A DNA stretch of 64,000 nucleotides from Cordylochernes scorpioides. Lineage: Eukaryota; Arthropoda; Arachnida; Pseudoscorpiones; Chernetidae. A model generated the notes under the pieces. The model made no database searches. It was given only the letters and a program-made list of their open reading frames with translations, and was not told the DNA's origin. Where the stretch lies: the NCBI GenBank assembly GCA_030710605.1, contig CP092865.1, positions 31,714,190-31,778,189 on the forward strand. The letters are read 5' to 3'. How positions within the stretch are numbered: position 1 is the first letter of the stretch; each line of letters starts with the position of its first letter. Below are positions 4,166 to 64,000 of the stretch, in pieces. Both the position numbers and the translations under genes were made by a program.

Positions 4166-4467
4166 CCCTTTCTTAATCAATTCTGTCACCGTTTGCTTTT
4201 GTGAATGGAATAATTACCCAAATATGGCCATTTCTCATAACCATCGGTGGTTCAGTGGTAGAATGCTCGCCTGCCATGCGGACGGCCCGGGTTCATTCCA
4301 GGCCGATGCATTTTTATTTTATTTTTTTTTTTTACAATTTTTAAAACTCATTTATATATTATACAAGAATGGCATCCACGGCGCCAATTTATAATTGTAA
4401 CGAATAGTATTTGAATAAAAGCATTTAATCGGGTAAACCCCGGGCGTTGCCCGGGTCATTCGGCTAG
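4166..4467 (+). mobile_element. Second tandem Helitron copy with intact 3' terminus
   Basis: It starts inside the family sequence (ATTCTGTCACCGTTTGC), carries an almost full-length tRNA-Gly pseudogene, and ends with the GC hairpin CCCGGGCGTTGCCCGGG followed by TCATTCGG and CTAG at 4464-4467, then T. A hairpin about 10 nt upstream of CTRR is the defining Helitron 3' end. The head-to-tail arrangement with 3428-4165 fits rolling-circle tandem products. Confidence 0.75.
4241..4310 (+). pseudogene. tRNA-Gly(GCC) pseudogene captured in a Helitron
   Basis: The order is acceptor CCATCGG, A box TGGTTCAGTGG, anticodon arm CTCGCCTGCCATGCGGA with GCC anticodon, T arm, then CCGATGC with a trailing A. Defects are C instead of G at position 1, a C:A mismatch at the top of the anticodon stem, one T-stem mismatch and a missing G in the T loop. 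No CCA is encoded, as expected for a nuclear tRNA. It lies inside the Helitron and is not expected to yield a working tRNA. Confidence 0.8.
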
Positions 4468-5614: not shown

Positions 5615-6895
5615 CCAGGTCTATTAGTATGAAACGCGAAAATGACCGCCATGGGGCGCTGTGCAACTTTATTTGAGCCGACGGTGGCGCTGTTGAAGGC
5701 ATTTTGTGTTTTTACTCACGTTGCATCAGCATGCGTGCAGTTTCATAAAAATTCAAATCGTGGAAAATTTCTGGAGCCCGTGGAAAATGGCGATTTCCGA
5801 GCCAAAAAGTGCCCATTTGCGGGAAGTTTTGTTGTTCTCCTTCAACTGGAAGAAAAGTGCCACTGAAGCCCACCGAATGCTCGAGCAAGTTTACGGCGAC
5901 CACGCTCTGAGCAAATGGCAGTGTTACAGGTGGTTTAAAAAATTCCAAAGTGGCGATTTCGAACTTGATAATGAACCACGTGGAAAACCGCCCCAAAAGT
6001 TCGAGGACGCTGAACTGCAAGCTTTATTGGATGAGGACAGTACCCAAACGCAGGAGAAACTCGCGAAACAGCTCCAGGTGTCTTAAGGTGCTGTTTCCCT
6101 ACATTTAAACAGCCTCGGAATGACCCAAAAGCTTTCCAGATGGGTCCCCCACGAGTTAAGCGAAAGGCAGCAAGAAGGGCGTCTGGTAACCTGCGAAGGG
6201 CAGCTCGCCAGGCATGAAAAGAAGTCATTTTTACACCGAATTGTAACTTCTGATGAGAAATGGATCCACTTCAGCAATCCTACGCGCCAAAAGTCGTGGG
6301 GCCTGCCGGCCAATTTCCAAAACAGACGCCTAGGCCCAATCGCTTCGGAAAAAAGGCAGTGCTTTGCGTATGGTGGGACTAGACCGGCGTAGTATATTTC
6401 GAGCTCCTGAAACCTGACGAAACGGTCAATACTAGTCGCTACGAACAACAAATTCACAGTTTGAGAGAGGCATTGAATGAAAAAGACCGGAATGGCGTGA
6501 AAAGCACAAGCTGATACTGCAGCATGACAACGCTCCAACCCACAACGCTACGGTGGTCAAAAACACCATAAAAGACTTGGGATGGGAACTCTTACCCTAC
6601 CCGCTGTACTCACCAGACTTAGCGCTGTCGGATTACCACCTTTTCACATCTTTAGGACACGCCCTAAAAAACCAGGAATTTTCGAACTCAGTCATACTCC
6701 GAAAATGGCTTGTTGACTGGTTCGACTCAAAAGGAATAGAATTTTTCAGACAAGGAATTCGAAAATTGCCTGAAAGGTGGTCCGAGTGTATAGCTAATTA
6801 GGGCAATTACTTTGAATAAAAAATCTTTTGTTTTATGGAATTGGTGAACTTTTGAATTCTCTGAAAATTTTCGCGTTTCATACTAATAGACCTGG
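5615..6895 (+). mobile_element. mariner element 1 with perfect terminal inverted repeats
   Basis: A 29-bp inverted repeat beginning CCAGGTCTATTAGTATGAAA occurs at both ends with no mismatch. TA flanks each side (5613-5614 and 6896-6897), the mariner target duplication. The 1281-bp length is normal for mariner. The perfect ends contrast with the badly broken transposase, so this copy was probably mobilised in trans before it decayed. Confidence 0.95.
5787..6818 (+). pseudogene. mariner transposase pseudogene
   Basis: The N-terminal helix-turn-helix region reads AISEPKSAHLREVLLFSFNW, followed by CYRWFKKFQSGDF, the usual mariner DNA-binding block. The catalytic triad can be followed across frames: TSDEKWIHF for the first Asp, LQHDNAPTH for the second, and YSPDLALSDYHLF for the third, giving DD34D. 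In-frame stops (for example after KQLQVS near 6084) and several frameshifts between 6085 and 6560 disrupt it. The end GNYFE then TAA matches family C-termini. The family cuts and pastes at TA; this copy cannot encode an active enzyme. Confidence 0.9.
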
Positions 6896-7096
6896 TACAG
6901 TAGCGATAGGCAGGTGATATTCTGGAGGTAGTGAGCGACAAGATCTGATGAATTTAACACAATGAGCTTTATTGTATTGTTATAATATGAAACGTAAAAA
7001 ATAAACTATCTTCCATCGGAGTAATTATCCTGAACTATTATGCTGATCAATAATATTTTTTCCAACTTTATCCTTCTAATTTTTTTCAGTTTCTAT

Positions 7097-7360
7097 AACA
7101 GGCTTCTTTTCAACCTCTTTATCCTATTTACTTTCTTCAGCTTCTATAACAGGCTTCTTATCAACTTATTTAGCCTCTTCAGATTATCCAACAGGCTTCT
7201 TATAAACTTATTTAGCCTCTTCAGTTTCTCCAACGGGCTTCTTAACAACTTATTTAGCCTCTTCAGTCTCTCCAACAGGCTTCTTATAAACTTATTTAGC
7301 CTCTTCAGTTTCTCAAACAGGCTTCTTAACAACTTATTTAGGCTTTTATTCTTTTCATCT
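7097..7360 (+). repeat. 42-bp minisatellite, about six units
   Basis: The unit begins AACAGGCTTCTTATAAACTT and continues through ATTTAGCCTCTTCAG. Starts are at about 7097, 7148, 7190, 7232, 7274 and 7316. Read on the minus strand, one frame is open through the array and gives a 14-residue amphipathic repeat (EKLKRLNKFIRSLL). Another frame gives TEEAK-stop-VVKKPVGE with a stop in each unit. No flanking gene structure supports translation. Confidence 0.85.
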
Positions 7361-7734
7361 GAGCTTGAGTTTTTTTTATCTACTTCGCTCAGGCACTCAT
7401 AACCAACTTTTCCTCTGAGCTTGAGTTCTTTAACTCCTTCGCTCACGCACTCTTATCCTTATAAACAATACTCACAATCCTCCTGCCGTCCATCTTGCCG
7501 TGCCTTTTATACCTTGCTTGCGCAAAGTATTACCTCATTGGCTCTCTTTGTCACGTGATCAGCAAATGATATTATACAAATCAATTAATTTTAACAATCA
7601 TGTTGCAAATAACCAGCAATTAAAATTTTCATTTCAAACCATTGTTATATATTAACCATTTTTGTTGAGTATCCTATAATAGCAGCTTTAATATATATAT
7701 GTTAAATAAAAATATCATTTTATTCAAAATTATA
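7361..7734. other. No gene seen between minisatellite and LTR-like repeat
   Basis: Apart from a second short duplication (GAGCTTGAGTT near 7361 and 7416), nothing recognisable is present. Confidence 0.35.
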
Positions 7735-8040
7735 TTTCATATATTCAAATATTCTGTTTATATCTACCACCAGATGTCGGGACCTTCCCTATATAAAACC
7801 GATTGTTGTTGGTTCCCAATGGCCCGCTCAAACCGTTTGTACATTATGTAAATAAGTTTTCGTTTTCTTCTACTACTCGCCTTTAAAGTCAAGGTATTAT
7901 TTCATTCTCAATTGTGTTATCATATCAATTATAGTAAATTATGATTCAACCTTTATTTTATTAATATTTTTCAACGACTACAAAGCAATATCAAAAAAAC
8001 ATACTCATGTACCCTTCAACAACCTAAGAAAATCTTTTTA
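7735..8040 (+). repeat. LTR-like interspersed repeat, copy 2
   Basis: It contains CCACCAGATGTCGGGACCTT, then CCCTATATAAAACC and ACATTATGTAAATAAGTTTT, collinear with 4478-4735. The TATA-like box is kept. Confidence 0.5.
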
Positions 8041-8047
8041 TTTATAA

Positions 8048-8095
8048 CTAGCCGAATGACCCGGGCAACGCCCGTGTTTTACCCGACTGTAGATG
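8048..8095 (-). mobile_element. Helitron 3' terminus (minus orientation)
   Basis: Read on the minus strand it ends with hairpin arms around GTTGCCCGGG, then TCATTCGGCTAG and a flanking T. Only the last 45 bases match the family; the rest of the element is absent or diverged. Confidence 0.65.
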
Positions 8096-8262
8096 TTACA
8101 ACGGTGATCCTTAGGTCGCTGGTTCAAACCCGGCTCGAGGGAGCCGGCGAGCACGTGACCTCCCTGTGCGCGCGCATCCGTGACAGAGGCCGATGAGGAA
8201 AGACGGTCGTGACTATATATAGGGATATTTATATGATGATCATCACCATGATATATGACTTA
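8096..8262 (+). repeat. tRNA-derived SINE-like fragment
   Basis: A B-box-like GGTTCAAACCC sits in a T-arm-like context, followed by a GC-rich tRNA-unrelated body (GAGGGAGCCGGCGAGCACGT) and a TATATATAG-containing tail. An A box is not clear, so the head is probably truncated. Confidence 0.4.
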
Positions 8263-8775
8263 TTTTTTTCTGACATATGTATATGTACTTTTATATTATA
8301 TATATATTTTTTATTCAACAGTTGCAAAGAAACGCCATATCTACAATTAGGATAATTGCGTGTAAATCTGAATTATATACAAATAAAATCATCTTAAAAT
8401 TAACATAGTTAAACATTGGGAAGCACGCAAATTACACATTCGATGTCAAATTTTGCATATATTAGCTTGAAATATGTACACCGTATAATCATGAAATGTG
8501 TACACAAAACTGCCATTTACAACTGTTGGAACAACGTGTAGACCAAGTAAATTAATCGTCAACAGTCAATACTTTCGCCTTAAAATGTACAGCCTGCAGA
8601 ATCTATTAAACTTGATGTATTGGTCTTTATTGTAAATAGCTTGTTTGGTGTTTGTCAGGTAAAGTTGGTTCTTCCCTTAAATCAGAAGTTGACGGACAGT
8701 TTATTAGAAGATGTTCTACATTTCCACAAGTGCACGCAGGTGAACCAATTTTACCAATTATAAACAAATATGTTG

Positions 8776-9766: not shown

Positions 9767-10336
9767 CTAACATATCACAGTTATATCATCCTCATAAGCA
9801 ATGATTTTACTGTTTGATTCCGAATAGGTATCCAATAAATCGTTTAGAATAATAATCCATATTGTAGGGGATATAGGCCTACCCTGTGGGCATCCCTTGC
9901 TTAATTTTTTATGGGTTTCATTTGATGAATACCTAAATCTCACTCTTCTATTATTAAAGAAAGACTGTAGTAGTTTTATTATTGAATCTTGAACGTTGTC
10001 CTCATCCAGTCTTTTTAGCACCATCGGCCACCATGCATTGTCGAACGCTCCACATATATCAACTGCGATTATAGCTGTATATTCTTTGTTTTTATGTTCT
10101 ATAGCTATTTTAACAATTTCATTTAATGCAGAGATGGTAGATCTTGATCTTGTAAATCCATGTTGACGATTGTTAAGTAGATTCGAGTCTCCATAAAATT
10201 TTATTAGTTTGTTGTTAATTATTTTTTCAAATGTTTTGGAAATGTTTGAGTTAAGACAAATGGGTCTGTAGCTTTTATAACTTTTCATGTCTGTTTTACC
10301 TGGTTTGGGAATAATTATTACCTCTGCTTTTTCCAT
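9767..10336 (-). pseudogene. R1-like LINE reverse transcriptase, YADD box mutated
   Basis: The frame shows NRQHGFTRSRSTISAL, then VDICGAFDNAWWPMVLKRL, KGCPQGRPISPTIWIIILND and finally AYEDDITVIC. AFDNAWWP followed by GCPQG(G/R)P(I/L)SP is characteristic of the R1/I superfamily of arthropod LINEs. The catalytic YADD is YEDD here (A to E), expected to impair polymerase activity, and a stop follows soon after. The family inserts by target-primed reverse transcription. Confidence 0.9.
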
Positions 10337-10850: not shown

Positions 10851-12517
10851 CGAATGCAATTTCCTTCATACTGAAAGTGCATCAATAATAAATAGAAGTT
10901 CCATAGAATAGCAATACAGAAGTAACACATAAACCACAGGCAAAAAGTGTGTGTGATGGAAAAAATTGTAATATATTAGTGTTTAAGTATTTGATTTAAT
11001 TATTATTATTTTTTTTTTTTGCAATCCATTTAGTTGTTTCAAAATCAATATAGTTTAAATAGATAGTAGCTTTTCCACCCAAACCCCGAGGTACCCGCCC
11101 CAGCGCATTAACCCTTGAAATTTACTGAGTTCAGTGAGTGACTGCGATGGATCTTAACTGCAATGCCCATTTTCTCAGTAAGGATAAGAAAAAATAGGTT
11201 TATAAAAAAATATTCCAAAATACTGGCATTTAAATATTTTTCTGTAAAAAATAAAAGAGCACATGGAAATTAAGCAAACATATGTGTTTGCTAATGACTG
11301 CGACTGCATTTTAAACGATAAAAAAAAAAAAAGATATACAAAATACGAAAGCAATTATTTACATACAGTAACGTTAATTTTATAAAGTTATTTTTTTTAA
11401 ATTGCATTGTGTGCACTTACCGTAACTTAGTAATATAAATTTCTCTATCAATACTCAATACTTTTGTAAAAAAAAAAGTAACACTCGTATAAAAAGGAAT
11501 TTCAAAAAAAAAAGTACGCAAGCAACTTGAAAAAAAAATGCAGAACACTCATTTGTCGCTTAATTGGCCTGGTTTTGTTACTTCGTCTCGTATTTTTTCC
11601 GCGTTAAAAAAAAAGTTCCTCAAATAAAAAAATAAATAGCCAAAAATACTAATCAAAATGTAGCCGAAAATTTTCCTCAGGTTCATAAAAAGCGACATGC
11701 AAAATTTGGTACCAATTGGTTTAGTAGTTTTTGAGTTTATCACGAAACAGACATTGACTTTTATATATAAGAGTGAAAAAATAGCACAAATGTAACATTG
11801 TACTAGGATAAGGTGCATAAATTAAGAAAAAGGCATCTCCTTATCGTGCAACTGAAAGTTGCTGATGGCTGGCGCCATCTATCGGAATAAATATCAACTA
11901 TTCTCGTTGGTTTTTAATTATTCCAGAATTGGCCAAAAATATATATAATATATTTTATTATATATACTATTATATATATACTATTATATTATATATACTA
12001 TTTAAAAAAAAAAAACAATTATATCTGATATCTTTACTGAATTATTTTGAGTTTTAAAAAAGTTATTCGATTTGAATTCACGAACATTTTTACGTCACGT
12101 CCTAATCGATGTATGCGTGTTACAATGATGAATACGTAAAATTTGCATTTTCTGCCACCGTTTGTGGGGGCGTTGTGGTCGCACAGATGAGCCGGATGAC
12201 GGCAAAGTACACCTTCTGCTTTTTATTGGTCAGCGAGACGCATGCGCAAACTCGCTGAGTTTAACTAAAAAAACTTTAATTCAACCTTAAGACAATTTTA
12301 GTTGCTAAAGTAAAAATGTGTTGGTTCAAAGTCGAGGTTATAAACAAGTTTGAGATTTGGTTTAACTAAATTAGAATTTCCCCGTCGTATGTGGGACAGG
12401 TCTATATGAACAACAGAATAGCTCGTTAGAGCATAAATCTACAGTCTAATGATATCATGCGAAGTTAAAAAATCCGAATATATCTATAAAAAAAAAACTT
12501 TAAAAAATTTATTATAT
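10851..12517. other. AT-rich region without a recognisable gene
   Basis: Long A and T runs dominate. A segment near 11700-11790 (GTTTATCACGAAACAGACAT then TTATATATAAGAG) resembles tails of degenerate transposons and may belong to the element ending at 10815. TATATACTAT repeats lie near 11940-12000. A segment at 11830-11900 (AAGGCATCTCCTTATCGTGC) is related to 55930-55960 and 63585-63610. Confidence 0.4.
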
Positions 12518-23700: not shown

Positions 23701-26700
23701 TGCCATGTTTGTAGAGTTTGGGAACATGGCATCATGATGGGCCCATACTGGATAATGACGTAGAACTTATATCTATATCTCTCTTTCGCCATGTTTGCAG
23801 AGTTTGGGAACATGACTCAATGATGGACGCACGTACTGCCCTTAATGACGTAGGACTTATTCAGGTTAGCTAATGTTTATTGCTTCTGTCATGGTTACAC
23901 AATTTGGGGATACTCAATGATGGGGTCATACCTCTCAACGATATATTTAGGTTATTAATGTTTATATTATAAATTCGAGGCCGAATATTACCCATGTTTT
24001 TTTGTTGATCAATCTAATAATATTTTCAAGATTGCCGGGTGGCTAAAACAACGGCGCCCAACAAGGCAGATGAATTACCATCTGCCTGGTGAATCGACGT
24101 GGTTGCAGTCTCAAGGCAATAATAAAACTATTGTGAAAGTCGTTGTGTAAATAGCTCTTCATTTATAAAAAAAATTCTTTCTAAATCCAAGACATAACTC
24201 AAGTTTGAAATGTACTATGGATTGCTATATTTTCAATAGGAAATATTCATATAACCGAAAAAATAATTTGAGCTTTGGTATGGCAGAGAAATTAAAATAT
24301 CTAATGGCTATTTTTTACATATGAAAATAATAGTTTCCTTTATTTTCCTGATGGTGCGGCGACACGTTTTGCCGTCATTATCAAGTGTTATTAGGCATTT
24401 GGGATAAAGTATATTTTTTACATATCTACGAAGAACGTGTGATGTGAGAGACATGTCAATTGTCACAGCACTAAGTGCCATGTTGCTGAGAGACTTCTGT
24501 ACGTACCTTAATTCTCAGACTCCTCTCGTCGTCAAAGCCCACCCATTGGTCATCCAGGTGGGCGTATGGCACCTTCTGAACATCGTCCCACACGTACCGC
24601 GCTCCTTTCTTCAGCATCTCGCAGATCTGGAACAACCTCCTTGTCAGTTCCTGTGGTTTGGAAAGATGGATACCTGCGGACACAGGTCGTTCTCACCTAT
24701 ATATATATCATATAGAGCGGTAACATTCCTTTTTATAAAAGAAAAAACACATTGAAACATTTCTTGATATTTTTTTTTAGTATAAAGCATACACTCGGTG
24801 AATAACCAAAGTCCCAGTTCAGAAAATTTGAAAAAACAAACAAACAAACAATCTTTATATTTTAAGGTTATAGCTCAACTTAGTACTGGTGTAAATACGA
24901 TTTCGTGACGTTTTATGGAATGATCATTTCCATTCTTGATGTTTATTGAACAATAAAACTATGCTCCTATATATTATTGTATACTCTTTAATGCTTATAT
25001 ACGTATGGGGGTATATTATATATACATTATATATTATTAATATTATTATATATTATTAACCTGACAGACAAGAATGGATCAAGGCCAGGGGGCCATCTTA
25101 TCGAGGAGCCACTAGGAGAGGCCATAGAAAGACTGCTGGAGAGCTGCAGGACATCAGGGGACCATAACGGCAAGGCCCACAGCACTGACCAGGAGTCAAG
25201 ATAGCAAATGTAAATATCTTTGTTTACTTTTACTGTAGTCATTTATTGAAGTTGTAAATAAAAATATGTAAATAGACTGACCATTCGCTACACTTTTTAG
25301 AGAAAAACTTGTAACCTTTTTGAAAAATAAATTATATATTATTAATATTATTATTACATTATTAATATTTTATTTTATTCATTCGCTGATTGGTTCTTAA
25401 CTATCACCTGACCACAATCAGCCAATTAGCGTGGAGTGATTGAACGCGGGTGTTTATCAGAGTGTGGTGTAATTGTTACCTCGTAGTAGGCCAGGAAGCC
25501 TTCCTCCCTGGTGTACTCGCCAGCCTTGCCCCCGCCCCGGGACGCCACGTTGTACCCCGGAGCCTCCTTGTTGGCCAGTGTGAAGGACCGCCCATAGGTC
25601 GCCATGCCGACCACGATCTTGTCCTTAGGCGCTCCCAGCCGCTCCCACAGCTTCACGCCAAAGTCCTGTACACACACAGCATTAATGCTCCCTTCCATTT
25701 ATCCTTTTGTTCCTTCATTTATACAAAAGGCAAGTATTTCCCATGACGAGTGGGAGGATCTAAAACACAAGCGACTAGCACCCTCTTAGAAGAGATTGAA
25801 GTTGTATTAGTGCTTAACAAATAAAGTGCAGGAAATTTTCATGGCAAGGATAAAAATAAATGCTCCAATGGCCCCCGATTTTGAAAAAGGTTCACCCCAC
25901 CAGCAAGTTCAAGTAACCAAACGGGGCTCTGTCACATTTTTAAGTGCAAAGTCGAACTGCTTTTCACGTGTGTGGACATGTGGTGCACTTACAGTAAAAA
26001 GCAGTCGCCAACTTCTACTCACCATGATTAGCATGGCCTGTACTACATGTGTACTAGGGATAATAAGAAAAATGGCAAGAAGGAATGTACTTCAAACCCA
26101 ACATTTTGTTAGTATTGAGGTGAGATGTAGGTGCAGGCAGGCGTCCGTACATGATAGTAGCAAATAACTCAATATACTATCCTTATCCGGTTTTGGCTAT
26201 AACGTAGCATATATTTATAGGAAGGACTAACTGTTCAGAATCTAAAACTTTATCTTTTGAAGAGAAGAATTTATAGGTAAATATAATAATGTCTCGATTT
26301 CGAACAGTGTTACAACGGAGAAACCGGTCGATCTATCCGCACCAGATTATCTGAACACAGCCGCCACATACGCACCAACGACCGCAAGTCTCTCTTATGC
26401 CAATACATCACAGAATTTCGCCACTCGTTCAATTTGGACAGCGCTGTATGCGTTTACAAGGGCGTCGGAAACAAGTATCAGCGCCTAGTCCTTGAATCTT
26501 TGGTCTCGCACTGCACGCCCAGTTTCAACCGAAAAATCGACCTCCCACCCCAATACTCCGTGTTTTACCTCGCCAATCCCCCCATCTGAACTATTTACCT
26601 ACTGTATTAGGCTATCTTTCATGTCCATAGTTTTAAAATATTGCCAAGTTGTAACCTGAAGAAGGGCATTCTTGCCTGAAAGCTTGCTTTTTACTATTAA

Positions 26701-29700: not shown

Positions 29701-32700
29701 AATTTAATAAATTTTAAGATAGTTTTTGATATATTGTCTCTTTTTGAATTATTCATTTTTTAAATTTTTTTCTTAGCTAAGAGAGCATTGTTTTCCCATG
29801 ACGAAGCATTTGATCATCATTTTGAAAATAATTTTTGTATTTTGGAATATTGAAAATGGGGCAACTGATAATTAATGTAGAAAAATTCATTTTTTGTAGG
29901 TTGACTTTTTTTGGCGATCACTTCGTGTTTAACTTTCCGTTTTGAAAATGGCGAGAATGGGTTGCCCCGCCGAAACGTAAAAAATTCTGTAGTTGTTGTG
30001 TTTCGTTATCTGATTGAAAATCAAAGAAAGAAATGTGTCATAAACTTTCTAGATTACACATTTCATATTGGTATAAAATTTACATGAGAAGATAATTTTG
30101 TATAAATCATTATTTTGTTTAGAAAAAAGGGATGTGTTAAGTTGAGAAATGACAAATATAGTATATCACCTATGCTGTACTATATAACAAGCCAAAAGCT
30201 TTCTACTTGTGTAGACACGTGGTGTACTTTATAGGCAATCGTCAAATTCTTTCCACCATGCTTATAATGATCTGTACCATGTGTACTTTCTGGATGAGAA
30301 TAAAAAGGATCTTTAATATAAAGGTTGTCTCAAAAGTTCGTAAACACATCATGATTTATATTTTGCAAGTGTTTACGAACTTTTAAAACAACCTTGTAAT
30401 TTTTAAACTTGGCCCACCTACTGATTGGCCACCCTTTATATAGAACATCAGAGATTAAATCATTCTTCTATAAGATTTCTGTTATAATTTTACCAAAGTT
30501 ACCAATATTACCTAGGTTGTCCAAAAGTTCGTAAACACTTGCCTCAATTTTATAAACACAATCATAATAGGTTTATGAACTTTTGGGAAAACGTTATAGA
30601 GTATGGTGATCATATTAGCTTTTTTAAAATAGAAAACATGTAAGAGAAATGGTATTTAGATACAATATTTTCTACAAAGACTCACTATTCTATATACAGT
30701 TACGAGCGTCATTCCTGGCCTCTGTCACGGTTTGCTTTTTTTTTTCTGAATGGCGCCCTCCTATTGGTCGGCTACGATCACGCCACCTTTGCCCCCCACC
30801 CCCATCATTTGGTGCCGCCAATGCGCGAGACACTTCTGTCACCGTTTGCTTTTGGTTCAGTGGTAGAATGCTCGCCTGCCACGCGGGTTCGATTCCCGGC
30901 CGATGCATTTTTTTTTTTACAATTTTTAAAACTCATTTATATATTATAGTGGCGGGCGGCCCGGGTTCGATTCCCGGCCGATGCATTTTTTTTTTTTTTA
31001 CAATTCTTAAAACTCATTTATATATTATAGTGGCGGGCGGCCCGGGTTCGATTCCCGGCCGATGCATTTTTTTTTTACAATTTTTAAAACTCATTTATAT
31101 ATTATAAAAGAATGACATCCACGGCGCCAATTTATAATTGTATAACGAATAGTATTTTATTAAAAGCATTTAATCGGGTAAACCCCGGGCGTTGCCCGGG
31201 TCATTCGGCTAGTTCTCGCATAATTATGACCCAACCAGTAAGCGCAAAGTCATACTGTTTTTTACATGAAAAGACAAGTGGTGTACCTTAAGTATATGAT
31301 GCCTCAAATCTGTATCCACCATGATGATTTCTACATAACATGTGCGTAAGTTAAATAAAAGACATTCAGGCAAATATTTTCTGAGTGTAGAAAGGTTTTA
31401 GTCGTCTATAAAATCAAGCGACATTTTCAAAGATTTTTAATTAATATCTTAAGTAGATATAAATGCAAGCATTTTTGTACAAATACACGTGTGGTAATAA
31501 TTTCAATATTTCAAAATTGTATATATAGCCAGACACTAAAAATTGAAATACAGCAAGCCAATTTTCATTATAATTTACCAGAATACACATATAGAAATTT
31601 CATCGATTTCTTATTCCAAAAAAATAAATAAAATAAAAGAAAAAGAAAGAAAGAGACAATTGCCAAATGCTCCAATTCAACCAATTTTTAATGTTTAGCT
31701 GGTGCAATTACTCCATTTCCTGAGATTTCCAGGGGCCGTGAGAATTGGCGTCTAGAGCTGAATCCAAATCTCATTTCTTTGTTCTTTCTTCTATAGACCA
31801 GAAGATATTCGCTACCAGCCCCTCGCGGAAGCCAAGGTGGAAAGCCAATTCAAACACACAGAAATGTTTTCTACCGATTTCCTTGAAACTAAATTTCTTA
31901 GTTTTGATGAAGTGCTCGATATTTTCCTGAAGAATGTGTTTCTTTTGAATTTAAATAGAAGCAGAAGTTTTTTTGTTTGCGTCATAATTTACATATTTAT
32001 TCACATATTGCCTTCTCTTGTAACCCGGGCTCCTGGACTCATATTGCCTTTGAGTCCTTTACCTATGTTTGAATCTCTTTACAAACTATTTTGACAAAAC
32101 CTCTTTGCAAAACTCTACAAAACATATTTGCATAGCTTTACAAAACTTCTTTACATATTTCCTGAGTTCAATAATTGTCAAAAATTTGAATTGAAAGTGA
32201 AAATATTTCACCTCAGTTCAGGATAAACAATTCTTAAAATATTTTCAACACATTCGAAAAGCATTTTATGTTCGCCAGGTGAATTTCGAGTAAATACCAT
32301 GCACCTCTATTAAAATAAAACATAAGGCCTCCAGGGAAAGTTTCTTTTTTTTTAATTGTTTATTTACAAATCTCTCAAGCTTTCTGATAGGCTTAGCAAA
32401 AATACGATGTTTCTTTTTTAAGGATTTCAAGTTGTTTTTGTACTCATGTATTTTGTAGTTAAGAGGACATCCCTTTTGATATAAACTAATATATATTTAT
32501 TTAAGGAACGACTTGTTCCAATACAAGTATTGTTAAAACAAGCGATCAAAGAATCAAAAACAGAAAAGTCATGAAGCGTAGTGAGTAGAAGTGACGTCAG
32601 CACCGATGATGATAAAGTCAAAGTCTGCGTAACACTTTCGGGTAAGAAACCCCTTCTAGAGAAGAAAATATTTTAAATAATATATTACATAAGATGCTTC

Positions 32701-44700: not shown

Positions 44701-47700
44701 GTTCCCTGATCTAAATGATTTAACTCTTTTACATCAGCCACTTTGTCTATAACAATTTCATGAACTATGTCGATTAGTATAGATGTAAATTTGTAAATAC
44801 TTAATTCTAAGTTCTAATTTGTTTGTTGTTTTTTGTGTTTCCTCTGTAATAGGCGCAAATGTTTCAATATTGCGCCTGGTTGATTAATACATTTAAAATA
44901 TACTTTAGAGAAACACTAGGATTTTGATTATAGAGACGTTATTTATTATTTATTATTTAACAGTTGGGAGAGACACGCCATATCCACAATTTGGGTAATT
45001 GCGTGTATATTTTAAATTATATACAATTAATATACAATTGAACATTGGGAATCATGAAAATTAAAAGTTCGATGTCAAATTTTGCATCTAGTAATTATAA
45101 ATAGTAGCTTGAAATATGTACAGTCAATACCTTCGCCTCAAAATATACATCCTGCAGAATCTATTAAACTTTATGTATTGGTCTTTATTGCAAGCAGCTT
45201 GTTTTGTATTAGTCAGGTAAAGTTGGTTTTCTTCCCTTAGATCAGAAATAGACGTTATGTTTTAGTGATAGGCATTGGAGACGCCGGTTATGTAAATTTC
45301 TCTCTTTTTTGCTTATTCAGCCAGAAGATTTACATATTTGTAAATATAATTCTGTATATAAGGAGGTGAAGTTTAATAAAAGTGTGTCAGTTATAAAACG
45401 GGTGTTGGTGAATTATTAGTGTCATCAGGGTAGCCTTTCTAGTGTTGTGGACACTTTTAAGGAAGCAAATAGGCTTCAATTAGGTTGGAGACCAGAGGTC
45501 TGACAAGAAGATACAGAAGCTCTGCCACAACTATTTAGATAAGGCCAGACATCCAGGATGCGGCAAGCTTTCCGAGCTTAGTAAGTGAGGCAGTGATCGC
45601 CTCCGAAACAGTCATATATATGCATATCCTGGATATCTTCTAGTACACAGGAGTAGGTTGAAAGTAGTTTTATATGTATTGTGTTATTTGGATGGTAGCT
45701 ATATTTTAGAAAGACTGGCAGATGTTGTAAGAATGCGCTAGGTTTTTTTTGTTGCTGTTTTTTTGACAAATGGAATCATATTGTATCAAAGTATTTATTA
45801 TATTTGATGTACAGATTATTACTTTTGATATTTATATTATTTATATTTGCTACTCTGTAAACTTCCTTCATTGCTTATTTTGTATCTTATAAATGTTGAT
45901 TTTGTTTTTGGGCCTTAAATAAATTGCTGTGTCATCCTGAAGTTTGTCTTTCCTAATTTTCTACGTTACATTATCGTCTCTAAATACACAGGAATACAAA
46001 GTTGAGACGAATTTTGATATTTTTGTTTTTAAATGGTGAAAATATATTCGATATTTTTTGGGTATATAAACGAGTTAGAAAGGCAGAGATTATTTAAAAG
46101 AACATGCAAAACACGAAATAAAACTGTGGTAAATGCTAATAAATATTTTGGTAGATTAAAAACTGATGAAATTTATAAATCGATATAGTTCGTTAGAAAT
46201 GTATTGATAAGTATTTTGTTACAAAAACAGCCTGTATTAAGATAAATTCTTCCAATCGGTTATTTGATAAAAGACAAAAAAACGGCCTCTAACACTAGAT
46301 ATTCAACCTACTTGAGTTGGAGCTGGATGGGACTTACCAACAGCCAGTAGAATTTTCAACTCCGGATTTTTCTTCTTGAGATCTATGACTCTCTCGTAGA
46401 GGCCTTTCTTTCCTTGCTTGGTCTCGTCCGTGGGCTCGAAAGCTGCCACCTTGTGTTTCTTCATCCATCCGAAGGCGAAGAGGACGTGGGTGCACAGATG
46501 GGGCGGGATGTCCTCCGGGGTGAACTGGCCGACAGCTGGCCGGTACTGGGACCAATTGGTGTAGTAGCAGACCAGCTTCTTCTTACCTCCTCCCCCGGAC
46601 ACTTTCTTGGCTGTATAACACAGCCACTTGGGTGAGATATAGGAAGACATCTTTTTTAACATACGGATATATATATATGTATAATCACAGTTTATTTGTA
46701 ATAATAAAACATAAAAACATTCTTTAAAGGACATCCTCTAATTTGAGTCATTAGTTCTTACACTCTTTTGCCCCTTCTCAGAGTTATACCCTGGTAAGCT
46801 TAACGCTAAAACTGTAATAGTCTAAAGCGATATATCTAAACATTCAAAAGTAGAAACCTGACGAGATTAACGATAAAACTGTAACAGCCTGAGGATATGT
46901 CTCAACATTCAAAAGTAGAATCCTGACAAGCATAAAAATGTATAATATGTAATCAATGCATGATAATAAATCTCAACATTCAAAAGTATAGCCCGGATGA
47001 GCTATTGCTAAAACTGTAACAACATGACAACATACCTCAACCTTCAAAAGTAGAAGTCTGTGATGAGCTTAATGCCAAAACTGTTAGCAGCATAAGGATA
47101 AATATATCTGAACATTCAAAAGTAGAAGCTGGGAGAGGTTAATTTTCAGATTGTAAAAGACTAATCTTTCTTGAAATAAGGAGTCGAGACTTGCTAAAAC
47201 AGAGAGAAAGGGCAAGTAATTCGAGTTACACAACTACCTTTCAGAAGAATGTAGTGTTTTGTTTTACCCATAGTTAACGCTTAAACTGATAAGTGTGAGG
47301 TTCAAAATACGGAAGACTACTATTGCACAGTTCAAAGCGAATAAACCTGGCATACTCAACTATCAAATTGTCTAACCCAGGTGAGTTCAAGATTCAAGAT
47401 TTAAAATCTTGAAAAGTTCAACTTTCAAAGTGTAGAAACCTGATGATCTCAAGGTTCAAAATGAGATGTCTATCGAGCTTAACGTTAAAAACGTGCTACA
47501 TTCGTTATTAAATAAATGTATTTAGATGGGATATTTTCCAAGGGAATGGAAAACGACAGTTTTAAAAATTCTAATGAAACCAAACAAATCTAACGTCGAT
47601 TCAATAAATAGCTATCGACCTATTTCGTTAACATCTAATCTGTCTTAGATCTACGAAAAAAATTATTAAAAATAAAATTTATGAATATTATATGCAAAAC

Positions 47701-50700
47701 AATTTATTAATTCCTAAACAGCATGGATTCATCAAGTCAAAATCTACTATTACAGCCTTAAATAATATAATCGATATAATAATGGAACACAAAACCAAAG
47801 AACTGACAGCTCTGGTCACAATAGATATTGCGGGAGCCTTTGATAACGCATGGTGGCCTGCGATTTTAAAAATAATAGATGAAGATAATTTGCCGGAAAG
47901 TTTAATAAGGACTATTCAATCATATTTCAAATCGAGGAAACCGAAATTTACATAAGAGAACTTAACAATAAATAAACAAATTACAAAGGGATGTCCGCAG
48001 GGTGGCCCGCTATCTCCACTACTATGGATAATATTACTAAACGATATTTTGATCAAATATCAAGTTCCTAATAGTGAAGTGGTATGTTATGCGGATGATG
48101 TATCAATTATATGCTGGTACAACAAATGCAAAGACCTGAAATTAGTTATAGAAAAGGCATTAAATACGATTGATGTATGGTGTAAGAGTAACAAACTTGA
48201 AATAAGTCTAGAAAAACTAATATACTTTATTTACATAACAAAGAAAAATTCCCAATCAAATTTAATAATGAAATAATCATACCAACTCTGAAGACAAAAA
48301 TTTTAGGAATAATAATTGCAAATCACAGAAGAAGAAACAAAATAAATTTTACATACCACATAGAAGAAATAGTAAATCGTACTAAACGTTTTAAAAATTA
48401 TCTCTTCTCAATTTGTGGGAAATCTTGGGGTCTAAGCACCCAGAAAAGGCTAACTTTATATAAATCCATTTTCAGACCAATACTTACATATGGAGCCGAA
48501 ATTTGGTTCAAATATTTAAATAAAAAATGTTTACAAAAATTAAATTCAACCCAATATCAAATACTAACATGGTGTATACAAGCCTATAAATTCACATCAT
48601 ATAGCTGTGTTCAAAGTTTGGCCAACATTCCTCTGATATCAGACTTTATCGAATCCAGAATCATGATATCTTGTGATCTGAGAAACTTATCCACAGATGA
48701 TCAACAAATTTATGACCCATTTATTCCAGGAATTATAGGTACCTTTCTCAAATCAAGAATGAATGTTCTGAAAAACGAAGCAAATAATACTTTCTTAAGC
48801 TTTGTCCCCAAGAAATCCCTAAATACATTCGTCCAATTTTTTATAATACTCAATTTGTTAAAAACCACGGAAATTTCAAAAGTTTTTTAAATATAATAAA
48901 GGCAGTGGAGGATTCAAGTTGCTTTTGTGGTATTGAGGAACAAACCTCAAGACATCTACTGATCGATTGCCCAGCATTTAAAGATTATAGAATGAAGAAT
49001 GAACTAGTTGTTTGTGAACTTGACGATTTGATTTCCGATAAAAAATCATATTTAAAGTTCAATTCATTTTTGTAAATACATTATAAACTTTCTACAAAAT
49101 CTGGATCTCTAATGTTTTCATGCGTTGAATATTGTAAATAACTTATGTAAATAAACTTTTATCCTTGTTTGGCTCAAGTATCCCTTGCGGGATATAGCGC
49201 TTTGGAAATAAAATAATTGGTAAATTGGTTTAAAATATAAAAGCTTGAAAATCTTAACGTTGAATGAATGGAGGCCTAACGATGCAAACGTTCAAACAAA
49301 GTTTAAATAATAGAAGTTTGACAAGTTTAGCATTTAATGGATAGAGGCACACCTTTAAACTATACAACCTGACGAATTTAAGGTCCTCATACTAGATGTG
49401 ACAAGCTTTAAGTTCTATGTATAGATGGGACGAACTGCAAATGTAAAAATCAGAAGCCAGACAAATTTTAACAATGAGACTGATGAGAACAAACGCATAT
49501 TACCATTAAAAATACATTTTATAAAAGTAACTTTATTATAAGTAAATTTATATACATCAATACAATAAACTGAATGTCCTCATATACTAATTCAATGTAT
49601 TCAGTCTGATATCATTATACAGAAAATTCTAAAATAAAATGAAAAATCATAACTATTAAACATAAATTTAATATTAATTTATACAAGGCATGTCCCATAA
49701 GTTCCCGGACTGGGTCCATAAAAAAAGGTAAGATATTAAAAAAAAAAAATCAAAACTTTTCAAAGTAATCCCCCTTTGCTTCAACGCACCAGAGCCATCG
49801 TTTCTCCCAATTGTCGAAACAGTTTTTCTAGGCCTCTTTTAGAATGCTCTTCAATGCCAACAGCGATTTTTCTATTATGTCATCCCTGGTGTCAAAATGT
49901 TTTCCTTTTAGAACTTCTTTAAGTTTGGGGAACAGGAAAAAATCATTTGGTGCGATGTCTGGGGAATAGGGTGGTTGAGGTAGGATTTATGTCCTGTTTT
50001 TCGCCAAAAAACTCGTCACCAAGTGCGATGTGTGAGGTCGGGAATTGTCGTGGTGTAGGATCCAGTCACCATTAGTCCATTTTTCTGGCCTTTTTTTCGA
50101 ATCGCTTCCCTTAGACGGCGAAGAATACCCAAATACATTTTCTTAATAAGTGTTTGGCCTGCAGGAAGATACTCGTGATGAACAATGCCCTTGTTATCCA
50201 AAAAAGCGACCAGCAACATTTTGTTTTTGGATTTCAATATCCTAGATTTTTTGGGTCTAGGCTCATCCTGACCTCTCCACTCGGCAGATTGACGCTTGGT
50301 TTCAGGGTCATAGCCATAGACCCATGTCTCGTCGCCTGTGATTATCTTGTCTTTCTCTCTCTCTCCATTCCGGATCCGTTCTTGTTATTTCCAACATGTC
50401 CTCACAGGTTGCAAGCCGACACAGTTTTTGCTCATTAGTGAGGAATCTTGGGATGAATTTTGCAGGAGTCTTTTTGAGCTTCAAATCTTCGGTTACGATC
50501 CTTCCAATCGTTGTTTTAGAGATGCCCGTGTCTTGCTCTAGCTCCAGCAAAGTGGTTCGAGGATTTTATTTTATAAAATCGGCGATTTTTTGCACATTTT
50601 TATCAGTCCTTTGAAAATTTGGGCGTCCTTGACGAGGATCATCTTCAATGGAAATTCTGCCAGCTTTAAATCTAGAATGCCATTCAAAAACAGTTGTTCT

Positions 50701-56572: not shown

Positions 56573-59500
56573 GTCCGCAAAATTAAAGGAACAACATATT
56601 TTTTTCATTTATCTCAAATTTTATTCAACATTTATCAATGAAATTTTATAGACAAATTTATTATTCCATTATTGATTAGAATACCCGAAATCAAAGAATT
56701 CTAACACGTATTTTATGCAAATTAGCCGGTCAAGCAATAATCTTCTTGCAGTCAGTGTATGAATATCTCGGATATTGTCGTTAATATGGGGTGTGATCGC
56801 CTTTAACTGATAGACAGGCTCTACATCGGTGCCCATACTAAGAATTAGGGTGTTTATCAGCTCCTGTGGAATCAACGCCCACTCTTGTGTTAAGGCTGTT
56901 TCTAGCTCATGGGTGTTTCTATGAGGGGGTTGGAGGGATGAGATCCGTCGTCCTAGATTTTTCTATACATGCTCAATGGGATTTAGGTCTGGAGATCGAG
57001 CTGGCCAATTCATCCGAGCAATTGCATGGTTTTGGAGAAAAGTGTCGACCACATCAGCCCTATGTGGACGGGCATTATCATCCATTAGAAGAAAGTTTTC
57101 TTCCATTTCAACTGATACAATACGCAGAAGGTTTCACATGAAGGGCCTCTATGCTCGACGACCCATAATTTGTGTGCCGTTGACACCACCTCAAAAGAGA
57201 CCAAGGGAACTTTGGCGCAGACAACATGTCGCCTGGAATCCAGATGAATGGAGACGTATAATGTTCACTGATGAGTCCAGATTCTCTCTAAACAGCTATT
57301 ATCGTCGTGTCTTTGTCTGGAGAGAGGTAGGAACCAGAAAAAAAACGAAATATGGTTAAAAGGGATCCCTACAGAAGCCAAAGTTCATGGTCTGGGCTGG
57401 AATCTTCTTGGACGGTCGCACAACACTCCATATTTTTCGGCAAGGAACCCTGACTGGACAGAGGTATCGGGACGAGATCTTGTCAGCATTTGTGATGCCT
57501 CAAGCATTGGAAATGGGAGAAAACTTTCTTCTAATGGATGATAATGCCCGTCCACATAGGGCTGGTGTGGTCGACACTTTTCTCCAAAACCATGCAATTG
57601 CTCGGATGAATTGGCCAGCTCGATCTCCAGACCTAAATCCCTTTGAGCATGTATAGAAAAATCTAGGACGACGGATCTCATCCCTCCAACCCCCTCCTAG
57701 AAACACCCATGAGCTAGAAACAGCCTTAACACAAGAGTGGGCGTTGATTCCACAGGAGCTGATAAACTCCCTAATTCTTAGTATGGGTCACCGATGTAGA
57801 GCCTGTCTATCAGTTAAAGGCGATCACACCCCATATTAACGACAATATCCAAGATATTTATGCACTGACTGCAAGAAGATTATTGCTTGATCGGCTAATT
57901 TGCATAAAATACGTGTTAGAATTATTTGATTTCGGGTATTCTAATCAATAATGGAATAATAAATTTGTGTATAAAATTTCATTGATAAATGTTCAATAAA
58001 ATTTGAGATAAATGAAAAAAATATGTTGTTCCTTTAATTTTGCGGACCAGTGTATATATAAATCGGGTTAAAATGGTCCAATTTCTCTTTATATCGTATA
58101 TAGGAAATTACTAATTAGCACGAATATTTTCAAATATATATGCTCTCCCAATATTTTTAAATTACGGTGTAAGGATGTTAGGAAGTTGTTTAATTTATTT
58201 TAAAAAAGAAATTTAAAAAAATGGGGCTATAATAGTTTCATTTATTGTACATAGATGGCGCGCCTTATATAAATAGAGAGACGCGGCGACTGACTGCGCA
58301 GTCAGTGAGACAGACAGACGGATAGACACCCGGGGTTGTTCTGCCCGGACCTTCAGATATCTACTTCCACCTATTTTATAGCATAACTTTCTATTTGATT
58401 ATTTTAGTACGCTTTTCTACGAATTCTATTTGATTATTTTACTTTACCCATTTCTACGAATTCTATTTGATTATTTAGTTTACCCATTTATACGAATTAC
58501 TCAGTGTCTACTATTTTTATAGCTTATAGAAATCTATAATTATATATACAATTAATTTTTCCATCGCAGTAAGGACAGTAGAAATTGTTTTATTTTAAAA
58601 AGAATATTACGCCTCTAAAATAGTTTTATAATTTGATATACAATTATACCTCAATATATGGCGGTCAATAGATGGCGTCAGATTCTGGCGTTTATTTTGA
58701 CGGGAGAGGCGACCATTGCTTCCATGGATTAATTTCCTCCCGGCAAATTTTCCATCTATGTTTTGCCAATAGATTTGGCCCAGCCACATTGCCAGCAAAA
58801 CATCTCTTAGGTAGATTGTGAGGATTCCTTTAGATCCCGTGTGAATCTCATGGAATAAAGTCCGCCCTAGACTGACGAGGGCCATTAGCCCGAAACCATG
58901 GTCTCTAGGTGGACGCTTATCAGTTTGCCAAAGTTGACGGGAGAGGCGACCATTGCTTCCATGGATTAATTTCCTCCCGGCAAATTTTCCATCTATATAT
59001 ATATATTGAATCGTGGCTGCGATTTCTATTTGATTATTTTAGTTTATCCATTTAAATATGAATTACTCAGTGTCTACTATATAGCATATATAGTTTATAT
59101 AGCATATAGATATCTAAATATTTTATATATGCTCTATGTATAATAATATCTCAATATATATATGCATGTGCCTAGCTACATAGTGTAATACCAATCCAGG
59201 CAATTGAACCGTCTCTTTGTTTTGATTTGACTCTTTACATTTTTTTTTAAATTTGTATTCATACTATAAGAAAAATAAAAGTGTCATGAGATTTTGAATA
59301 ATATACTGCGATATTTCATACGATTACTGCCATAACTTTCATAAAATGATGCTAAATGAACGATGAGGATTTGCTATAAAATTGTAATTTTACTAAAACA
59401 TAGGTGCTATAGGTGTGCAAGACACTTTAAATACAGCTTGCATCCTAAATCGAGAAAGCGCCATCATTTTATTAATTGAACCAAAAATATATAAAATATA

Positions 59501-62940: not shown

Positions 62941-63576
62941 AGAAGATATTATCTGTTTTATTGTGGAGCTTATATTTGATAGTATTATAGTAGAAAAATG
63001 AATTGCTCTTTTCTAATGGGTTTACAGTTCTAATGAATCACACCGATAACATGTCCACGTTTAAAATCAGAATATAAGAAAAAAAGGAAGAATTGAAGAT
63101 GAGTAGAAACAGAATAAAAGACGGAACCACATACACATGATAATATTTAATCAAACTAATAAAAAGTAAAGAGAATAAGAATTTTATTTTAATATTTTTT
63201 GGATAGTTTCAATTTAAATTAAAATTCTCTGAGAAAATTAGATATAACATGCCAATTGTTTCATATGTTTAAATGAAGGAAATCCTAGTTTACTTTATTA
63301 GTTTGACTAGATGCTATCATGGGGATATATTCTTTCACAGTTCTATCTTCAATTCTTCCTTTTTATCTTATGTCCCGCTTCTATGACACATAGCTTCTAC
63401 GTGAACACGTTATAACCCTAAATTGTTGTTGATAATGAAAAACCATTTCGAATATATAAACCTTTTAAACCTCTCATACATTTACCTTTCTTTATTACTC
63501 TTAATTCTCTCTCATTGTACAAAATGAGTTTTCTATTTCAATATTCATTCATAATTATAAATATAACTATTGAAAT
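62941..63576. other. AT-rich stretch, nothing recognised
   Basis: No gene or element identified. Confidence 0.4.
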
Positions 63577-63960
63577 AAAAAAAGGCATACCCTGACCAAG
63601 AGAACATGATAATTTTAGATGGCAGAGCGCCATCTAGTGGAACAGAAATCAACTAAACGTTGATTTAGCCTCTTACCTGATATTTGGCCAACCCATTTTC
63701 TTGATAAACCAAGAAAAGTTAACGACGAAAGCCTTTCGGGCTGCTGGCCCTCGTCAGCGTGGTGCAGACTGTACCTCTACGACCAAAAATATTTTGGTCC
63801 CAGAGGCTTTTTGAGAAACCAAGAAATGCGTATCTTAGGCCAAACTTGCGTAAATACACTTAGCATGTGAAAAAAAAAACAATAAAAATAAAAAAGGGTC
63901 AGGTGTTGGTATTAAAATCAAAAAAGGCATATCCTGACCAAGAGAACATGAATTTTTTAC
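63577..63960 (-). repeat. Direct repeats flanking a hammerhead-like motif
   Basis: AAAAAAAGGCATACCCTGAC (63577) and AAAAAAGGCATATCCTGACC (63922), each continuing AAGAGAACATGA, lie about 345 bp apart. Between them, on the minus strand at 63727-63757, is CTGACGA, stem GGGC/GCCC with loop CAGCA, and GAAA. AGCGCCATCTAGTGG (63627) also lies inside. Confidence 0.6.
63727..63757 (-). ncRNA. Hammerhead-like core, stem I not evident
   Basis: Minus strand CTGACGAGGGC, CAGCA, GCCCGAAA fulfils the core and stem II. It is followed by GGCTTTCGTC, so a GTC triplet exists, but stem III pairs poorly, and the bases after GTC (GTTAAC) do not pair with those before CTGACGA (CACCACG). Probably a degenerate relative of the ribozyme at 58866. 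Confidence 0.55.
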
Positions 63961-64000
63961 ATTTGTTGTGTCCGTTATAGCTTGCTATATAGACATGATA

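Follow-up and report, generated by a model that had tools for sequence, protein, structure and literature searches.

Penelope-like insertion ends in a hammerhead retrozyme family of the pseudoscorpion Cordylochernes scorpioides

A hammerhead-like sequence near 58.9 kb of a 64,000-nucleotide stretch of the Cordylochernes scorpioides genome (contig CP092865.1; hereafter, the window) raises the questions of whether it is a genuine ribozyme, what kind of element carries it and which enzyme could have placed that element in DNA. Animal retrozymes with type I hammerhead ribozymes and circular RNAs have been described, with Penelope-like elements (PLEs) proposed as their mobiliser and named a strong candidate for the enzyme that moves them (PMC7229834, consulted in part).

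The motif is located at 58860-58914 on the forward strand. All core bases of a hammerhead are present within 58872-58903 (CTGACGA at 58872-58878, GAAA at 58892-58895, and GTC at 58901-58903), and the CUGANGA...GAAA...NUH core, the three stems and the open stem I are those of type I. Cleavage is predicted from these letters to fall between 58903 and 58904. An initial annotation of this DNA was right about the invariant core and about stem II, which consists of 4 bp (GGGC/GCCC) with the loop CATTA. Its 6-bp stem I (CCTAGA/TCTAGG) is also present but was drawn too short: the stem is prolonged beyond a bulged C by GTCCG/TGGAC, for 11 bp in all, and the motif therefore spans 58860-58914. The 3-bp stem III that had been proposed was abandoned because a 2-nt loop is unable to close. 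Stem III is best read as 2 bp (AC/GU) under a palindromic CAUG tetraloop, and within a dimer it might instead form an 8-bp ACCAUGGU duplex. A 2-bp stem III under a tetraloop is also found in the axolotl retrozyme hammerhead HHR_Amex2, as it appears in the excerpted text of PMC7229834; the sequences are different, and the axolotl RNA was shown to cleave whereas cleavage of the present motif is predicted. At -17.3 kcal/mol, the hammerhead fold scores below the stability of the best alternative structure (-22.2 kcal/mol), and the unconstrained fold of the motif differs from the hammerhead.

The bare core pattern is found twice in the window versus 0.82 times expected, which is not significant (at least two matches in 17 of 100 shuffles). 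A scan requiring stems of at least 5, 4, and 3 bp returned one match in the window and one in 300 simulated windows; looser settings of the same scan returned 7 and 27 in 300 simulated windows. The combination of stem-loop II and GAAA has 2 matches, versus 0.04 expected. The covariance-model search that the initial annotation had suggested as a check went against it: Rfam models identified no hammerhead at gathering score across the window, none at E ≤ 5 within 58600-59100, and none in related loci (L002-L005) or in two PLE loci (L071-L072). This miss could reflect a limit of the models with variants that have a short stem III, the Rfam run having been made without a known-hammerhead control. 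The reality of the hammerhead is decided by its genomic copy number: the host genome contains 8,774 copies of the exact 32-nt sequence of 58872-58903 (4,362 forward and 4,412 reverse) and none of the reversed control. The suggested search for other genomic copies thus succeeded, and the motif is not a lone copy. Within the repeat family defined by these copies (family 1), there was no clear signal of selection on the hammerhead core (0.023 substitutions per site vs. 0.030 elsewhere).

What had been described as a 238-bp repeat unit is a perfect 63-nt direct repeat spaced 237 nt apart, and the monomer of family 1 measures 318/319 bp. It has a GC content of 48% and occurs as tandems, singles, and head-to-head pairs, with one array showing a period of ~318 bp. 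Among the first 100 of the 8,774 motif positions, neighbors within 1 kb comprise 9 divergent, 0 convergent, and 3 same-strand pairs, the last each 319 bp apart. A genome search with a 237-nt query gave 57 matches (40 of 1,160 candidates scored), and identity among the full-length matches is 95-100%, with the window itself accounting for the 100% value.

Mapped on the 318-nt monomer (positions m1 to m318), the window copy covers 335 bp of the forward strand (58662-58996) in a single orientation, in the order m78-m318, m1-m33, and then m112-m174, with a tailed 3′ end. Both copies of the 63-nt repeat (m112-m174) lie on this strand, at 58697-58759 and 58934-58996. The second contains the two end sites of the family, and its 34-nt tail (58963-58996, m141-m174) leads from the short to the tailed 3′ end site. 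At the junction (58934-58936), the 78 nt of m34-m111 are absent ahead of the last 63 nt, and it is this deletion that produces the 237-nt repeat spacing. The flanks show a possible 6-nt ATATAT duplication, and an open frame of 143 codons on the minus strand (58610-59038) covers the copy. With a single hammerhead and one cut site, the window copy cannot release a unit-length RNA and is probably inert.

These properties are those of a known class. Metazoan non-LTR retrozymes, as presented in the portion of PMC7229834 consulted, have a type I hammerhead, a small non-coding monomer (~170-400 nt), a GC content below 50%, tandem copies from dimers to multimers, and many genomic copies. Family 1 shares all of these, the minus-strand frame of 143 codons spanning its window copy notwithstanding, and its target duplications, where present, exceed 4 bp. 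The suggestion of a stand-alone, non-coding, retrozyme-like repeat with a type I hammerhead holds up, given the many genomic copies. We classify family 1 as a non-autonomous non-LTR retrozyme, a new member of this class in the pseudoscorpion C. scorpioides. Plant LTR retrozymes are likewise non-autonomous retroelements bearing a hammerhead, but theirs is of type III and accompanied by LTRs, 4-bp target site duplications (TSDs), and circles of 600-800 nt (PMC4918200 and PMC7229834, both in part).

The window also contains a member of a second, older hammerhead family (family 2), a partial dimer on the minus strand (63568-63962) with 53-nt end repeats 342 nt apart. Its core (63724-63757, minus strand) is weakened here, stem I being broken after 3 bp, and identity to its relatives is 82-87%, among the 40 of 6,104 candidates that were scored. 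In a better preserved relative (L073), stem III is a palindrome, ACGCGT, without a loop, and family 2 may therefore be functional only as a dimer. In contrast to family 1 and the PLEs, copies at L073 87-681, L039, and L010 4541-4990 seem to be arranged tail to tail on either side of (AT)n. The hammerheads of the two families are separated by ~5 kb in the window and by at most ~530 bp in L002 and L005, a closeness that may be explained by a shared liking for (AT)n targets. A possible third hammerhead family was noted at L003 1160-1190 (minus strand); its stem-loop II is the same (GGGCCAACAGCCC), but its core is broken and its flanks differ. Elsewhere in the window, tRNA-like stretches on the forward strand (4241-4310 and 30848-30985, one of them split) lie near repeated protein-like strings (SGRMLACHA...) that look like tRNA-derived SINEs.

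To describe the insertion footprint of family 1, we mapped the ends of 34 loci (L002-L005 and L011-L040) on the monomer; these come from the best-scoring 40 of 1,160 candidates and are not a random sample, L014, L018, L020, L021, and L027 overlap one array, and L031 and L033 resemble one duplicated locus. Forty of the 50 outer 3′ ends fall at two sites 34 nt apart, m140 and m174 (19 at m136-148 and 21 at m169-177). Seven of the remaining ten are outlying ends (L003 at m107, L004 at m40, L005 at m162, L013 at m133, L028 at m131, and second remnants in L028 at m302 and L029 at m44), and the other three are filter gaps within arrays (L020 once and L040 twice). The short end closes on the letters GCTTCCAT and the tailed end, 34 nt beyond, on CCATCTAT; the word TTCCAT is found at both end sites (m135 and m165, 30 nt apart), with a further occurrence at m240. 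Seventeen head-to-head blocks were recognized, with the 3′ ends outermost and a variable inner junction, and there were no tail-to-tail blocks among the 34 mapped loci. Exactly one end is tailed in all 17 of these insertions, and the second end lies at m136-148 in 15 of them, the exceptions being L003 (m107) and L013 (m133). Insertion targets are AT-rich. Among 13 clean pairs, 10 have target duplications of 8-12 nt, L034 has one of 5 nt, and L032 and L036 have none; the duplications are mostly (AT)n and weak, and clearly otherwise only in L012, L024, and L030. Seven single-orientation copies (L011, L015, L023, L028, L031, L033, and L037) traverse the ribozyme cut site, which suggests that they were copied from a circle or from a multimer left uncut.

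This footprint looks new. Insertion in head-to-head pairs, a fixed set of two end sites, and a single tail in each pair are absent from the account of metazoan non-LTR retrozymes in those sections of PMC7229834 that we consulted. A literature search at the level of titles and abstracts, covering few subscription journals and thus leaving absence unproven, found no paper reporting PLE-type ends for retrozymes.

We then compared these ends with those of PLEs in the same genome. One locus (L010) encodes an ORF at 6884-8620 with a reverse transcriptase (RT) match of E 4.8e-5, under the Pfam curated cut-off, and relatives such as P0012 and P0013 have both RT (PF00078) and GIY-YIG (PF01541) domains. 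PLE remnants are present in the window, 32 kb from the hammerhead: a protein fragment with a Y-GETGR stretch (26290-26586, forward strand) is identical to the C-terminus of the L010 ORF at 44 of 93 residues, and Pfam gave no match for it up to E 1. Of the 62,466 candidates in our PLE search, 75 were scored, and the comparison covered 30 loci of one PLE group. The end set comprised the 33 matches with ends from R590 to R700 of the L044 reference, in which L046/L049 and L047/L059 have near-identical flanks and may be duplicates. Two sites account for 31 of the 33 ends (15 at R611-636 and 16 at R653-656), and 2 further ends lie outward with tail letters present (L050 at R665 and L051 at R677). 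One tailed and one short end were found in each of the eight head-to-head PLE insertions with both outer ends, which were paired by hand (L041, L044/L060, L048/L052, L051, L053/L058, L055/L059, L062, and L063). Target duplications, 12-16 nt long with perhaps some bases of the element among them, occur in five of these eight pairs. In L048, the similar words TTATTCCTTTAA and TATCGTTTAA stand at the two end sites, 30 nt apart; in the PLE as in family 1, the two sites nearly repeat one another.

Several other features of the PLE sequences were noted. By eye, a minimal hammerhead-like stretch (CCACGCC...GAAAGCT) can be seen in pseudo-LTRs at L071 3390-3430 (minus strand) and L072 1018-1060 (forward strand); a pattern scan for hammerheads reported none in these two loci. 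Positions 1-560 of L071 form a minisatellite with a period of ~37 bp; it directly adjoins the terminus of a tandem PLE whose pseudo-LTRs measure 596 bp. A protein filed under the Wolbachia endosymbiont of the pseudoscorpion Atemnus politus (P0065) is PLE-like, and perhaps represents host DNA in the symbiont assembly.

Published PLEs provide a framework for these ends. In an Anolis PLE, reverse transcription begins at two adjacent internal sites, and the interval separating these sites corresponds to the optional 30-40-bp tail; cleavage and extension take place on both DNA strands, AT-rich DNA is preferred, and hammerhead mutants are without effect on insertion in vitro (PMC11167929, consulted in part). 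The rotifer Penelope has inverted pLTRs, target duplications of 8-10 bp, and a 31-bp tail that may be present on one of the inverted pLTRs; movement of a host gene in trans is also described (PMC3846280, likewise in part). Family 1 has in common with the PLEs of these partial accounts the inverted head-to-head arrangement with one of the copies tailed (17 of 17), short target duplications, AT-rich targets, and the association with a hammerhead; the two adjacent start sites and the optional ~30-40-nt tail are seen as insertion ends. Unlike PLEs, its 318/319-nt monomer carries no ORF with RT and GIY-YIG nuclease, and is without similarity to the 30 host PLE loci beyond hammerhead-like stretches (L061 and L063) and one 24-nt match (L068). 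Given that the retrozyme and the host PLEs share the same end anatomy, and given the published tail and two RT start sites of PLEs, copying by PLEs from circular or uncut RNA is the most likely explanation. We thus consider it probable, from the sequences compared, that family 1 is copied into DNA by PLEs. The mention of Penelope in the initial annotation was also right.

Under this model, tandem copies would be transcribed, and the hammerhead would cut the RNA, perhaps as a dimer, after which the RNA would be circularised. A PLE protein (RT and GIY-YIG nuclease) acting in trans would recognize the m105-m180 region and open an AT-rich target on both strands. cDNA could then be primed at m174 by one target end and at m140 by the other, and head-to-head joining of the two cDNAs would follow, at a position that varies. 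As a guess, the one-tail rule may reflect two protein subunits on one RNA, one per site, each serving one target end. Some points speak against PLE copying: no shared sequence that would explain recognition was found in the 30 PLE loci compared, and in this best-scoring sample of loci the duplications are weak, mostly (AT)n, and missing from 2 of 13 pairs.

Alternatively, family 1 could be a short non-autonomous Penelope derivative, a free piece resembling a pseudo-LTR, which would not depend on a circle made by the ribozyme and would have its hammerhead as inherited baggage. We regard this as unlikely. Such a derivation would fit the PLE-type ends, the minimal hammerheads of PLEs (described in the consulted part of PMC11167929 and seen by eye in L071 and L072), and the short nonautonomous Penelope elements of Heliconius (PMC6685494, in part). 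However, the monomer is unlike the PLE loci outside the hammerhead-like stretches, in a comparison that covers one PLE group of the 62,466 candidates; the bare monomer forms tandem arrays; and its hammerhead is of a type unlike the minimal form. PLE pseudo-LTRs were also considered as the source of the family-1 hammerhead and were rejected, the likeness in the 30 PLE loci being confined to the stretches and the 24-nt match named above, and the hammerheads in L061 and L063 lying opposite the ORF strand.

It is still less likely, indeed rather improbable, that a LINE-type element mobilises the retrozyme, whose resemblance to PLE ends would then be accidental. RVT_1 matches that appear by eye to be of LINE type do occur in the window (9770-10336 and 47632-47952), and the 15-bp TSDs of Nematostella repeats have been likened to those of LINEs (PMC4918200, in part), yet the two fixed 3′ sites, the head-to-head pairs, and the one tail per pair reproduce the pattern of the host PLEs. 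A satellite DNA that spreads through recombination or as excised circles of DNA, without RNA, would account for the array of 318-bp period but hardly for copies that are dispersed and show fixed 3′ ends, target duplications, and inner junctions that vary, and we give it almost no credence. The same is true of a host regulatory ribozyme of a chitinase gene: GH18 exons are present in the window, but they lie on the minus strand, opposite the hammerhead, the 5′-most ending at 46737, 12 kb away, and the motif is one of 8,774 copies. The placement in a chitinase intron is thus not supported; if 58.9 kb belonged to that gene, the ribozyme would be antisense to it. A viral origin was rejected as well, the single exact IMG/VR match of the stem-loop II core (L006) being taken as a phage hammerhead or convergence. 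On that contig, which is phage-like by eye, a hammerhead core with the same type of stem-loop II (GGGCCAGAAGCCC) lies at 12262-12300 (forward strand), and Rfam found no hammerhead on the contig.

Copying of family 1 by PLEs could be one case of a broader arrangement, for and against which we see the balance as even, in which animal retrozymes and Penelope share one insertion machine: an inner site would prime one DNA end and an outer site ~30 nt away the other, and the retrozyme would act as a viroid-like RNA mimicking the PLE start-site module without its sequence. If the shared machine is true, exactly one tail is expected on every two-ended insertion. With the two-site ends and the one-tail rule being the same in the host PLEs, the question of which enzyme moves animal retrozymes can be put to the test using a single PLE protein and a single small RNA. 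The interest of the locus rests on the mechanism and not on the ribozyme, and the footprint hints at how such elements spread in animals.
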